From assembly GCA_937877085.1 (NCBI GenBank), contig CALEEY010000044.1, positions 1-54,107 of the forward strand: a stretch of 54,107 nucleotides of DNA, written 5' to 3'. Shown in pieces: positions 45,028 through 53,133 of this stretch (position 1 is its first letter; every line of letters starts with the position of its first letter). The position numbers and the translations under genes are program-made. The notes under the pieces were generated by a model. It had not been told where the DNA came from and searched no databases. It saw only the letters and a program-made list of their open reading frames with translations. Origin of the DNA: an uncultured Bacteroidota bacterium. GTDB lineage: Bacteria; Bacteroidota; Rhodothermia; Rhodothermales; UBA10348.

Positions 45028-45609
45028 TTATCGAACTACCGGTTGTTTGGGATCGGAGGATAGGATCGCATGAATGCTTATTTCTTGCCTTTCATCGACC
45101 TTCATTACTAATAGTTTGGGCGGCGTGATATTATAGTCACTCAGGTTTAGAGACCAACTAGCATCTAACTGCCACGAGGACCCCGTCCTTTGAAGGGTAC
45201 CACGCACCGTTATTTCCTCTTTCACACCGTGAAGGCCAAAACTTCCCTTCACTTCCACTGGTTGACTAGCCAACGAATTTTGATCCACTGGCTTCACTAA
45301 AGAACCGAAAAATTCGGCGAAAGGATACTTTTTGACTTCCAGTGTGGTCCTCATGTCCTTATCGCGTTTCCCAATTCCGGTATTTAAGGACGCCAAATCG
45401 ACATAAAAATCCACCGTTCCGTCTGCAAAATTGATCGTGCCCACCAACTCCTGAGAGACCCCAGAAAAGGTGTGAAGTGGCACGTGTGAGGTAAATGTAA
45501 CTTCTCCCTGCTTAGTCGCCACTACCTGCGCCGCTAGCGGAATGGAGAGCATCCATGCCCCCATAACCGACAGAAAAATAGCTTTTCTAGTTGTTGAGAG
45601 CGCCTTCAT
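45028..45609 (-). CDS. YceI family protein
   Basis: TKQGEVTFTSHVPLHTFSGVSQELVGTINFADGTVDFYVDLASLNTGIGKRDKDMRTTLEVKKYPFAEFFGSL. Confidence 0.92.
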   Translation of the reverse strand: MKALSTTRKAIFLSVMGAWMLSIPLAAQVVATKQGEVTFTSHVPLHTFSGVSQELVGTINFADGTVDFYVDLASLNTGIGKRDKDMRTTLEVKKYPFAEFFGSLVKPVDQNSLASQPVEVKGSFGLHGVKEEITVRGTLQRTGSSWQLDASWSLNLSDYNITPPKLLVMKVDERQEISIHAILSSDPKQPVVR

Positions 45610-46024
45610 TGATCCACTTTGAAATGGTGCTAATTTTATTGGTTGAAAGGGGGGATTTTCCATCCGGCATTCGTTTACCAAACCGAGGACTAGAGCCGAG
45701 TTTGTCTACTAGTGGACTCAATGAGGCGTTTCCTGCCACAATAATGGGCCCACCGTATGCTGAGCCTATACTTCCCATTGCTGTGGCATAGGTAGTCAAA
45801 TTCACCCCGTTCTTAACATTGTTTATATGACAACCTGACCCGGCACAGGAACTGTGGAATATTTGAGAAACATCCTGAGAAAAGCTAACCGGACCGGCAG
45901 GAACGATCGGATCGTCGTCTCCGGGGCCTACAACGTCATTCCCAGACCCTCCAGAATCGCTCCCGCAGGCCGAAAAGAATATAAAGGTGCTCAATAAACA
46001 GAAAGAAATAAAGCGACTGGACAT
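45587..46024 (-). CDS. c-type cytochrome-like lipoprotein (CX4CH haem motif)
   Basis: Lipobox FFSACGS; FHSSCAGSGCHINNVKNGVNLTTYATAM...MPDGKSPLSTNKISTISKWINEGA. Confidence 0.85.
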   Translation of the reverse strand: MSSRFISFCLLSTFIFFSACGSDSGGSGNDVVGPGDDDPIVPAGPVSFSQDVSQIFHSSCAGSGCHINNVKNGVNLTTYATAMGSIGSAYGGPIIVAGNASLSPLVDKLGSSPRFGKRMPDGKSPLSTNKISTISKWINEGALNN

Positions 46025-47910: not shown

Positions 47911-50451
47911 ATGACACGACAATTCACTTCCATCCTTCTCGTTTTGTTTTTGTGGACTACAGCGTCCGTAGCGCAAGACCGGGATCATCATTCGTCTAGC
48001 AAACCGAACTATGATTTGGCCACCAAATTTGCGCCCTATAAAATAGACAAAATGTTGTATTCGACGTCCATTAGCCCTCAGTGGATTGAGGGTACGGAGA
48101 ACTTTTGGTACGAATGGAAATCATCGGAAGGCTCGATGTATTACATCGTTGATAGCAAAATGGGGACAAAAAAGGCCATTTTCGACAATGACCGGTTCGC
48201 TGCAGAACTGACGCGCATTACCAAAGACCCATGGGATGGACAACATCTTCCTATTAACAAAATCAAGTTTTTGAATGCAAACACCCTTCAATTTGAAGTG
48301 CAGGGTTCCGAGGACGAAGAAATCAAAGAAGAAGAGGTGACCGAAGGAGACTCCCAAGAAAAAAAGAAGGATTCCAAGCCAAAAACGCGAAAGAAGGTCT
48401 TCCATTTCGAGTACACGGTAAGTACCCGTTCTTTACGGGAATTGGCTGATTTTGAGGAGCCCCCCAATCATCCGTCGTGGGCTTCTCTTTCGCCTGACGG
48501 GAAAACTATCTTATTTGGACGGAATCACAACATCTACAAAATGAGTGAAGCCGACTACGCCAAAATTTTGGCCGCTCGAGTCGGAAAAACGGGGGAAGAT
48601 GCTACAAAAGCTGAAGAAAAGGTTGAAGTCACGGAAATTCAGCTAACGACAGAAGGCGTTGAGTTTTTCTCCTTCGCCGGCGGTGATTTCGGAGATACTC
48701 AGAAAGAGGTTGAGAAAAACAAAGACAAGCGCAAAAGAGTCGGGGTTACCTGGTCCGCAGATTCCAAGCGTTTTGCTGCAAGCCGAACGGACCAACGCAA
48801 AGTCGAAGACCTATGGGTCATTCATAGCACGGGCAACAAACGTCCTGAGCTCGAAACCTACAAATATGCCATGCCAGGGGACGAATTTGTCGGGGAAGAC
48901 ATCATCCAAATTTACGATCTCACGTCCGACACGCTAGTCACCGTAAAAGGCAACCGTTTTAAGGATGAGAACTTCAGCATAATGACCGCACGGCAGTTTA
49001 GGTATCCGGCGAGCGATGAGCCGTACAGGGCCCTTTGGCTTTCCAACAACTCGGACGATTTTTACTTCTCCAGTATAAGCCGCGACCTGAAACGGGTTGA
49101 TCTGATGAAAGCTGATGCGGCCACCGGCGAAGTGACCGTATTGATCGAAGAAAGGCTAAATACCTACGTCGAGGTGCAGCGACTTGACCAACTGTCCAAT
49201 GGCGATTTGTTGTGGTGGTCGGAGCGCGACGGTTGGGGCCATATTTATCGTTTCGGGCCCGATGGGACACTCAAAAACCAGGTAACCTCGGGTCCTTTTT
49301 CTGTCCGCGGGATCCAATCGGTCGACGAAGCAGCCGGAGTCATGTACTTTACGGCCAATGGAAAAGAAAAAGGTGAAGACCCGTACTACATCCATGCCTA
49401 TAAAGTGAAACTCGATGGATCTGGTTTGCAGCTCCTTAACCCTGGCGATTTCGATCATAGATCCATGTTTAACGAGTCCGGCAAATTTTTTGTCGATAGC
49501 TATTCTCGCGTGAATACCATCCCAGCCATTTCGTTGATCAATCAGTCGGGGCAAAAAGTGCTGGATTTGGAAACCTCTGATTTCAGCCAACTGCTGGCAG
49601 CGGGATATCAATTCCCAGAACCGTTCAAGGTTAAGGCTGGAGATGGAATTACGGATATTTACGGCGTGATGTACAGGCCTTTTGATTTCGATGACACGAA
49701 GTCGTACCCGATTATCGAATATGTTTATCCCGGCCCGCAAACCGAATCGGTATCCAAAGCATTCTCTACCAGCCGGTTTGAAACGGCACTAGCGCAGTTT
49801 GGAATGATTGTCATTACGCTTGGAAACCGAGGCGGCCACCCAGACCGGTCAAAATGGTACCATAATTATGGCTACGGAGACTTAAGGGACTACGGTTTGG
49901 AGGATAAGAAGGTAGCGGTCGAACAGCTTGCAAATCGGCACTCGTACATCGATCAAGATCGGGTCGGCATTTACGGCCATTCGGGTGGCGGATTTATGTC
50001 GACGGCTGCAATGCTCGTCTATCCTGACTTTTTCAAAGTGGCCGTTTCCAGTTCCGGAAACCACACCAATGATATTTACAATCGCTGGTGGTCGGAAAAG
50101 CATCACGGTGTCAAAGAGGTCGTTAGCGATTCGGGTAAAGTCACGTTTGAGTATGCCATTGATACCAACCCCGAATTGGCAAAGAACCTAAAAGGTCACC
50201 TCTTACTTACGACGGGCGATGAAGACAACAACGTCCATCCTGCCAACACGTACCGCATGGTAGACGCGTTGATTAAGGCCAACAAACGATTTGATTTCTT
50301 TCTGTTTACGGGGCAACGTCACGGATATGGATCGATGTCTGATTATTGGTTCTGGCTACGAGCAGAATACTTTGTAGAGCACTTTATGGGCTCAACGGAG
50401 TGGAATCCAGATATTTGGCAACTCAACGTAGAAAAGCCAATGGATAAGTAA
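47911..50451 (+). CDS. S9 family peptidase (dipeptidyl-peptidase IV-like)
   Basis: Signal peptide; DPPIV-like beta-propeller; VGIYGHSGGGFMSTAAMLVYPDFFKVAVSSSGNHTNDIYNRWWSEKHHG; TGDEDNNVHPANTYRMVDALIKANKRFD; GQRHGYG. Confidence 0.93.
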   Translation: MTRQFTSILLVLFLWTTASVAQDRDHHSSSKPNYDLATKFAPYKIDKMLYSTSISPQWIEGTENFWYEWKSSEGSMYYIVDSKMGTKKAIFDNDRFAAELTRITKDPWDGQHLPINKIKFLNANTLQFEVQGSEDEEIKEEEVTEGDSQEKKKDSKPKTRKKVFHFEYTVSTRSLRELADFEEPPNHPSWASLSPDGKTILFGRNHNIYKMSEADYAKILAARVGKTGEDATKAEEKVEVTEIQLTTEGVEFFSFAGGDFGDTQKEVEKNKDKRKRVGVTWSADSKRFAASRTDQRKVEDLWVIHSTGNKRPELETYKYAMPGDEFVGEDIIQIYDLTSDTLVTVKGNRFKDENFSIMTARQFRYPASDEPYRALWLSNNSDDFYFSSISRDLKRVDLMKADAATGEVTVLIEERLNTYVEVQRLDQLSNGDLLWWSERDGWGHIYRFGPDGTLKNQVTSGPFSVRGIQSVDEAAGVMYFTANGKEKGEDPYYIHAYKVKLDGSGLQLLNPGDFDHRSMFNESGKFFVDSYSRVNTIPAISLINQSGQKVLDLETSDFSQLLAAGYQFPEPFKVKAGDGITDIYGVMYRPFDFDDTKSYPIIEYVYPGPQTESVSKAFSTSRFETALAQFGMIVITLGNRGGHPDRSKWYHNYGYGDLRDYGLEDKKVAVEQLANRHSYIDQDRVGIYGHSGGGFMSTAAMLVYPDFFKVAVSSSGNHTNDIYNRWWSEKHHGVKEVVSDSGKVTFEYAIDTNPELAKNLKGHLLLTTGDEDNNVHPANTYRMVDALIKANKRFDFFLFTGQRHGYGSMSDYWFWLRAEYFVEHFMGSTEWNPDIWQLNVEKPMDK

Positions 50452-50500
50452 GTTTAATTCATCTTTTGCCCTTAGGGCATTGGGAAAGCTGTTTTTTTGG

Positions 50501-50533
50501 AGAGGGGCCGCCCGTTGGGCGGCCCCTCTTTTT
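50501..50533 (+). terminator. Rho-independent terminator
   Basis: 13-bp perfect stem AGAGGGGCCGCCC-gtt-GGGCGGCCCCTCT followed by T-run; T-run also on left (bidirectional potential). Confidence 0.92.
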
Positions 50534-50627
50534 GTTTCAATAACAAGATCAGGACCAAATCGTGACACTTTTGACATCAAAAACGGAATCGAAATTTGCA
50601 TTTTTCGAAAAAATCGGACCTCCCCCT

Positions 50628-50798
50628 ATTTCGGAGCACCATTCAAATGAGGGCTTTGCCGATTCTCGCAGATTTAGTTCGGGTTTTGAAGGTAGATTAA
50701 CTAGCCGTCAAGCCATGTCGGTGGCAAACGTGCGGTTCTACCGAAGTGGTAACATGTTTTGGGACGAACGCGCCAATAGCCTTGAAGACCAAGCGCTC
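50628..50798 (+). pseudogene. Remnant of a di-heme cytochrome c peroxidase (MauG/CcpA family)
   Basis: ISEHHSNEGFADSRRFSSGFEGRLTSRQAMSVANVRFYRSGNMFWDERANSLEDQAL matches the family pattern [CxxCH]..FADxRxFSxGxxG..xRxxMSxANxRFY..G.FFWDERAxxLExQ, but the haem motif and the rest of the protein are missing. Confidence 0.7.
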
Positions 50799-50937
50799 GC
50801 AGCCGAACTTCCCAGAATATGAGGCCCGTCAGAGCAACCGTAAGCGTAAAAGAGTTTAGCCAATTCATTTTCTTCAAAAAGGTAGATGAATTACCGGTAA
50901 GTGGCGTATTTAGACAAATTGTTTATTAGAATACAGT

Positions 50938-53133
50938 ATGTCTACGATAAAAAAAGCCGGCGGTTGGGCCTCCATTGCCTACACATTTAGAAAAGCGAGA
51001 GAATCTGGGGGTTTTTTCGCGATGTGGCGCGCTATGCGATCCCGAAACGCATGTAAAACATGCGCCGTCGGGATGGGGGGGCAAAAAGGCGGGATGGTCA
51101 ATGAATCGGGTCATTTCCCCGAGTTTTGTAAAAAAAGCATCCAGGCCATGGCGGCGGACATGCAACCTGCCATACCAGCCGAATTTTGGTCCGACTATCC
51201 CATTAGGCGACTACAGCAAGCAAGTCCTCGTCAGCTCGAAGCATTCGGACGGCTATCCGAACCCGTTCGGTATAGACGGGGCATGCCCGGATATGAAATA
51301 CTGTCCTGGGAAGAGGCTTTTTCGTCCATCACTTCACGCTTAATTGCCACCGACCCGAACAAATCATTCTTCTACTTTAGTGGACGCAGTAGCAACGAAG
51401 CAGGCTTCCTGTTGCAGTTGTTCGCCCGTTTGTACGGCACAAACAATGTCAATAACTGTAGTTTTTATTGCCATCAAGCCAGCGGCGTCGGACTAAATCA
51501 GGTATTGGGAAGCGGGACGGCAACGGTCGTGTTGAAGGACCTGGACAAGGCCGATCTGGTGATTTTGATTGGGGCCAACCCTGCGAGCAACCATCCGCGA
51601 CTCATGAAATCGTTTATGCAGGTGCGCCGCAGAGGTGGAAAAGTAATCGTGATCAATCCCATTAAGGAATCTGGCCTAGAATCTTTCAGTATTCCGTCGG
51701 ACCCTCGTTCGCTGCTTTTTGGAAGTAAAATCGCTTCTAAAATGATCCAGCCGCATATAGGCGGCGACCTCGCCCTCCTTTCGGGAGTGGCCAAGTCTCT
51801 CTTGGAGACCCGAAAAATCGATTACGATTTTGTTCAGTCCCATACGGAAGGCTTCGACGTTTTTCGCGCGGAATTAGACCGGACTAAGTGGGACACGATT
51901 GTCACTCAATCTGGGGTTGACAAATCCACGATTGAACAAATAGCCGCGGACTATGCAGAGTCCAAAAACACCATTTTTGCCTGGGCTATGGGGGTAACAC
52001 ACCACCTCCGCGGAACAGAAACGGTCCAAATGATCGCTACTATAGCCTTGTTAAGAGGCATGGTTGGAAGAGAGGGCTGCGGCCTCATGCCCATTAGAGG
52101 TCATTCCAACGTCCAAGGCATTGGCTCCGTAGGAGTAACGCCACGGTTAAACAAGGTCATTTTTGAGAACCTTGTTTCGGAATACGGAATTGATTTGCCA
52201 ACGGCCGACGGCCTGGACACGATGGGCTGCATAGAGAAAGCACATGCAGGGGAGTTGGAAATCGGGTATTGCTTAGGTGGCAATTTGTACGGCTCGAATC
52301 CCGATTCCGTTTTTGCAGCAAAAGCGCTGTCTAAGCTTAAAATGTTGGTAACCCTCAGCACCACGCTCAATACGGGTCACGCATGGGCTTTGGCAGAAGA
52401 AACCATTGTTTTGCCCGTTTTGCCCCGAGACGAAGAACCTCAGCCTACCACACAAGAGTCCATGTTCAATTTTGTTCGCATGAGCGAGGGCGGGGAATCT
52501 CGCATGGACGGCCCTCGAAGCGAAGTATCGGTCATAGCAGAACTTGCCTCTAGAGTTCATAAGGACGGGCATCAGGACCGCTTGAATGCCATTGATTGGG
52601 CCGACCTTAACGATACGGACAACATTCGATCCATGATTGCACGCGTCGTACCGGGGTGGAAAGCGCTAGCCACGATGAACGAAACCAAAGCTGAGTTTCA
52701 AATAGATGGCCGCACGTTCCATACGCCCATATTCAATACGCCGACTGGCAAAGCTCGAATTTTTCCCGTGTCGCTGACCCAAGCATCCGAGCTCGGAGCA
52801 GGTACCTTCCGTCTCATGACCATCCGTAGCGAAGGTCAGTTTAATACGGTTGTCTACGAAGATCACGATGACTACCGGGGAATTGATAGCCGAGACGTCG
52901 TCCTGATGCATTCTGAAGACCTCCGACATCTGGGACTGCGACATGGACAGCGCGTTACGGTCTACGGTCCGAGCGGGCGCATGCCTCACGTGCAGGCCAT
53001 TCCCTTTGATCGAATCAAACGCGGTAATGTGGCTATGTACTTCCCCGAAGCCAATGTTTTGCTGTCAAGAGAGACCGACCGGCTGAGCAAAACACCAGCG
53101 TTTAAAGGAGCCGTGGTATCCATCCACGATTAG
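50938..53133 (+). CDS. FdhF/YdeP family molybdopterin oxidoreductase
   Basis: CKTCAVGMGGQKGGMVNE; FYFSGRSSNEAGFLLQLFARLYGTNNVNNCSFYCHQASGVGL; DLVILIGANPASNHPRLM; LLRGMVGREGCGLMPIRGHSNVQGIGSVGV. Confidence 0.92.
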   Translation: MSTIKKAGGWASIAYTFRKARESGGFFAMWRAMRSRNACKTCAVGMGGQKGGMVNESGHFPEFCKKSIQAMAADMQPAIPAEFWSDYPIRRLQQASPRQLEAFGRLSEPVRYRRGMPGYEILSWEEAFSSITSRLIATDPNKSFFYFSGRSSNEAGFLLQLFARLYGTNNVNNCSFYCHQASGVGLNQVLGSGTATVVLKDLDKADLVILIGANPASNHPRLMKSFMQVRRRGGKVIVINPIKESGLESFSIPSDPRSLLFGSKIASKMIQPHIGGDLALLSGVAKSLLETRKIDYDFVQSHTEGFDVFRAELDRTKWDTIVTQSGVDKSTIEQIAADYAESKNTIFAWAMGVTHHLRGTETVQMIATIALLRGMVGREGCGLMPIRGHSNVQGIGSVGVTPRLNKVIFENLVSEYGIDLPTADGLDTMGCIEKAHAGELEIGYCLGGNLYGSNPDSVFAAKALSKLKMLVTLSTTLNTGHAWALAEETIVLPVLPRDEEPQPTTQESMFNFVRMSEGGESRMDGPRSEVSVIAELASRVHKDGHQDRLNAIDWADLNDTDNIRSMIARVVPGWKALATMNETKAEFQIDGRTFHTPIFNTPTGKARIFPVSLTQASELGAGTFRLMTIRSEGQFNTVVYEDHDDYRGIDSRDVVLMHSEDLRHLGLRHGQRVTVYGPSGRMPHVQAIPFDRIKRGNVAMYFPEANVLLSRETDRLSKTPAFKGAVVSIHD

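Follow-up and report, generated by a model that had tools for sequence, protein, structure and literature searches.

The gap between an S9-family peptidase gene and an FdhF/YdeP-family molybdopterin oxidoreductase gene in the window (the whole stretch of 54,107 nucleotides that was analysed, from an uncultured Bacteroidota bacterium, genome G000) is very probably the scar of two lost genes, ccp, encoding a di-haem peroxidase, and sdpI, encoding an SdpI-family membrane protein, and holds a deletion-made remnant at the ancestral locus. The ancestral order would have been S9 peptidase, ccp, an sdpI-like gene on the opposite strand and fdhF/ydeP on the same strand as ccp. Two relatives retain both genes of this slot whole, and in five genomes it has been emptied to differing degrees, a clean example of part-way gene loss in uncultured Bacteroidetes-type bacteria.

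The peroxidase remnant and its flanks

The gap and its flanking genes contain the features listed below, in which G002 is a relative of the same genus and G013 belongs to another genus.

47911-50451, plus strand: intact S9-family peptidase gene (DPPIV_N and Peptidase_S9 domains), left flank, syntenic in G002, G003, G004, G009 and G013
50500-50533, plus strand: terminator-like inverted repeat with a T run after the S9 gene, GAGGGGCCGCCCGTTGGGCGGCCCCTCTTTTT, read directly
50558-50576, plus strand: predicted surviving ccp promoter element, AATCGTGACACTTTTGACA
50562-50822, plus strand: ORF of 86 amino acids with a GTG start, holding the peptide quoted in the preliminary description
50577-50651, plus strand: 75 nt, probably the former 5' leader, in which no significant match to the 5' portion of ccp was seen
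50652-50798, plus strand: di-haem peroxidase gene remnant of 49 codons, GFADSRRFSSGFEGRLTSRQAMSVANVRFYRSGNMFWDERANSLEDQAL
50799-50805, no strand: deletion junction from ccp (plus) to the sdpI-like head (minus), where G002 has about 1.4 kb more
50805-50868, minus strand: start (~21 codons, MNWLNSFTLTVALTGLIFWEV) of a membrane-protein gene of the SdpI family, convergent with ccp, identified by a shuffle test
50938-53133, plus strand: intact FdhF/YdeP-family molybdopterin oxidoreductase gene, right flank (TIGR01701, 687.8 bits, cut-off 582), syntenic in relatives

In total, 27 nt of the terminator-like repeat match G002 at the same place. Elsewhere in the window, positions 45587-46024 of the minus strand hold a lipoprotein-like ORF of 145 amino acids with a haem-like motif, CAGSGCH (CX4CH), followed by a 217-amino-acid ORF that may resemble YceI-type proteins.

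The strong MauG/CcpA-type match claimed earlier for the 86-aa ORF was recovered by the Pfam search, in which CCP_MauG (PF03150) matched with an E value of 3.4e-10 and 41.2 bits, over the curated cut-off of 25.6, with residues 26 to 80 of the ORF aligned to positions 28 to 80 only of the 149-position profile. A separate six-frame scan of the whole genome found the same match at 50637-50804 (E = 1.1e-9) and one further PF03150 gene, complete and on another contig (C9:10416-11009). The latter belongs to a different, intact PF03150 group that is also present in relatives. A move of the missing half of ccp to another place was considered and rejected, as the second half was not found elsewhere in the genome assembly, and no further copy of the ccp core or of SdpI occurs there.

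The core at 50652-50798 is identical to the intact G002 copy at 113 of 147 nucleotides and 40 of 49 amino acids (82%), contains no internal stop or frameshift, and loses its similarity to ccp sharply at both ends. A search of the ORF for CxxCH found none, and the window copy also lacks the PIxxPxEM motif and the second haem domain, as had been noted before; at about 50800 the sequence becomes sdpI antisense. The ORF starts with MTLLTSKTESKFAFF, which, read directly, has no lipobox and no recognisable signal peptide. No peroxidase could be made from this locus because it has no signal peptide, neither of the two haem sites and no electron-transfer domain, and any 86-aa peptide translated there would presumably lack function. 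In annotation, the fitting label for the ORF is pseudogene fragment, not cytochrome c peroxidase.

Probable deletion boundaries on the two sides

The preliminary description regarded the residues EHH as a reduced CxxCH, which implies that point mutation turned the haem site into ISEHH and that a longer, decayed 5' part is still in place. The Ser (TCG) and His (CAC) codons do stand in register with the CxxCH of G002. However, in-register nucleotide identity to G002 upstream of 50652 is 12/30 (p = 0.08) or 24/75 (p = 0.20), against 113/147 just downstream; no upstream homology was detectable in the same comparison with five orthologues (p = 0.06 to 0.76), and in protein-level comparisons of this region 211 to 896 of 1,000 shuffles reached the real score. 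Because no homology is detectable upstream of 50652, EHH cannot be called a reduced CxxCH, and loss by point mutation is quite unlikely. EHH is not demonstrably a relic of the motif, and a deletion junction at about 50651 appears to be the simplest reading. This junction would lie within 50577-50651, where, as judged from the coordinates, about 310 nt net are missing in comparison with G002.

The segment at 50558-50576, which was not in the preliminary description, is identical at 18 of 19 positions to the G013 sequence upstream of ccp, a match equalled by none of 300 shuffles, and is on this evidence taken as a ccp promoter element left in place. Related elements precede ccp in G002 (GTGACATTTCCGACA) and G023 (ATGACACTTCCGACA). 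The motif GTGACAYTTYYGACA is kept upstream of ccp in G002, in G013 and, with one change, in G023. With at most one mismatch it has a single site in the window genome, at 50558-50576, and the exact motif has a single site in G002, at ccp. The conserved element is possibly a regulator site or a -35 region.

On the downstream side, identity to ccp ends after GCGCTCG at 50798/50799, and the DNA alignment of the sdpI head with sister genome G001 starts at CCCAGAA, at 50811. The minus-strand remnant, likewise overlooked earlier and added here, was recognised from comparisons of MNWLNSFTLTVALTGLIFWEV with the SdpI proteins of G003, G002 and G004, in which none of 2,000 shuffles reached the score. The neighbouring proteins of G003 and G002 match PF13630 (SdpI) at 1e-12 and 1.2e-15, respectively; no Pfam match was obtained for 50701-50877 of the minus strand, and none to PF13630 in the window genome. 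The simplest route to this junction would be a single deletion, about 1.4 kb long by comparison with G002, that fused the middle of ccp to the convergent sdpI head.

The scar could thus be described by two deletions. The first would have removed the 5' part of ccp, from past the promoter to just beyond the first CxxCH, and the second the rest of ccp and all of sdpI except its first ~21 codons, so that the promoter element, the 49-codon ccp core and the sdpI head would be left over. Of the internal deletion or decay proposed earlier, deletion, at both the 5' and the 3' side, is the preferred cause rather than point decay.

Intact copies and repeated loss in relatives

A scan of 60 genomes found homologues of the 57-amino-acid peptide quoted in the preliminary description in 20, of which 19 are relatives. 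The best homologue (75% over 55 amino acids) lies within an intact 463-amino-acid frame of G002, whose product contains two CxxCH motifs, a PIQHPVEM motif and a lipoprotein-like leader, MKRISALMLLALVLWTGC. The proposal of a di-haem peroxidase relic between an S9 peptidase and an FdhF/YdeP gene is supported by intact orthologues at the window locus in both G002 and G013, where all four genes follow one another as listed here.

G002, C188:9566-12088, minus strand: S9 peptidase orthologue
G002, C188:8015-9367, minus strand: intact ccp
G002, C188:7572-7778, plus strand (opposite to ccp): SdpI-family gene, between ccp and fdhF
G002, C188:5251-7437, minus strand: FdhF/YdeP orthologue
G013, C21:8120-10690: S9 peptidase
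G013, C21:6395-7786: CCP
G013, C21:5934-6128, opposite strand: SdpI
G013, C21:3570-5741: FdhF

The G002 orthologue matches PF03150 at 8e-55 and the di-haem enzymes 6e1c, 3o5c and 1iqc of the PDB at 3.3e-39, 1e-33 and 3.4e-32, respectively, and scores 228.9 bits against the NCBIfam MbnH model, under its cut-off of 362.85. On these matches the intact orthologue should be filed as a di-haem member of the MauG/MbnH/CCP superfamily and not as MbnH or MauG proper. The ancestral ccp product, a peroxidase of this superfamily, was probably a lipoprotein. In the intact G002 and G013 peroxidases, the two haem domains are separated by a long low-complexity insert rich in Gly, Asn and Pro (NGGPGNGGPGNGG...). 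The frames of the G014 and G018 ccp orthologues are shorter, at 376 to 383 amino acids. The G023 orthologue (C312:1842-2798), which an SdpI gene adjoins (1516-1707), has an in-frame TAG and is possibly another decaying ccp or an assembly error.

The FdhF tree places the window genome with G003 (support 99/99), then with G001 (100/99) and then with G002 (91/97), in the order ((G000,G003),G001),G002. The gap between the S9 and FdhF genes of G003 has no trace of ccp and keeps a longer sdpI fragment (PF13630 positions 1 to 45 of 71). In G001, ccp is absent and sdpI is cut to its first ~21 codons; in G004, ccp is absent and sdpI is whole; and G009 has neither gene. G003 retains a piece that is gone from the window genome and the reverse also holds, and therefore the final deletions of the two were separate. 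The slot is accordingly read from these gaps as having been emptied several times, the sisters having lost ccp with other breakpoints. The S9 peptidase of G001 (C147:8167-8502) also has an internal deletion that leaves residues 1 to 76 and 807 to 845 in a single 114-amino-acid frame, and therefore the whole neighbourhood is eroding there.

The window genome is a fragmented assembly (332 contigs, ~90% complete), and the organism might have an intact ccp that a misjoin or a collapsed strain mixture has hidden. Against such an artefact, the remnant lies in mid-contig with syntenic genes on both sides, the single-copy ccp core and SdpI offer no repeat for a misjoin, and ccp is independently missing from the same slot in the sisters G003, G001 and G004, so an assembly error is very unlikely.

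Timing of the loss and comparison with known families

The core and the G002 copy differ at 9, 5 and 20 sites at codon positions 1, 2 and 3, respectively, so that 20 of the 34 differences fall at third positions (p = 0.002). In the flanking genes, about 0.63 to 0.70 of the fourfold sites differ between the window genome and its sister G003, which is near saturation; dS between the relatives is saturated and dN/dS is of little use. The synonymous divergence of the core is not higher than that of the flanking genes. Coding constraint on the core probably persisted until late on this branch, and the core was probably inactivated recently, because it keeps coding-type substitutions, though even the sisters are near-saturated at synonymous sites, and has no stop. 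The flanks differ at about 0.68 of the fourfold sites and the core at 6 of 17 (Fisher p = 0.007). In sliding windows of the flanking genes, the overall synonymous fraction is as low as or lower than that of the core in 7 to 10%, and in 0.4% for the fourfold measure alone. Recent acquisition of the core from a G002-like donor was considered and is a weak candidate, given that flank windows are as low in 7 to 10% of cases.

The core has no stop or frameshift and, by its third-position differences, looks selected, which is a point against a remnant; this fits a recent death, and residual constraint is also compatible with it. Continued selection on the 49 codons after loss of the enzyme, whether for a small peptide or for a transcript element that is antisense to the fused head of sdpI, is nevertheless most improbable. 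It is equally hard to credit that the 86-aa ORF is expressed as a conserved small protein that goes back to the first domain of a di-haem peroxidase. Its 86 open codons, the excess of third-position substitutions and an AGGA 7 nt upstream of the GTG would suit such a protein. However, no free-standing ORF of this kind occurs in any relative, where the homologues all lie in frames of at least about 200 amino acids that run on through the remaining parts of the protein; the first 30 residues of the ORF and its last ~7 are of non-peroxidase sequence; there is neither a haem site nor a recognisable signal peptide; and the GTG falls within the conserved promoter element. The reading as a deletion remnant of ccp and sdpI is preferred.

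The core is homologous to positions 28 to 80 of the profile of the CCP_MauG proteins (PF03150), which comprise bacterial cytochrome c peroxidase, MauG and MbnH-like di-haem enzymes. Unlike these proteins, the window copy has no leader, neither CxxCH, no PIxxPxEM and no C-terminal haem domain. Because these parts are missing, the fragment is, as judged from its sequence, a pseudogene remnant and not a functional member of PF03150. On the minus strand, the second remnant lines up with the N-terminal end of the SdpI genes that lie beside this locus in G002, G003 and G004 and, in contrast to members of the SdpI/YfhL family (PF13630), keeps only the ~21 codons that precede the Pfam domain, the domain itself being lost. 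As a whole, the locus is an ordinary pseudogene remnant, and it adds nothing new on mechanism. It resembles other bacterial pseudogene remnants formed by deletion in that a fragment persists at the ancestral locus, intact copies occur in relatives and sisters have lost the gene independently. Nothing essential differs, and here one deletion would have fused two neighbouring convergent genes.
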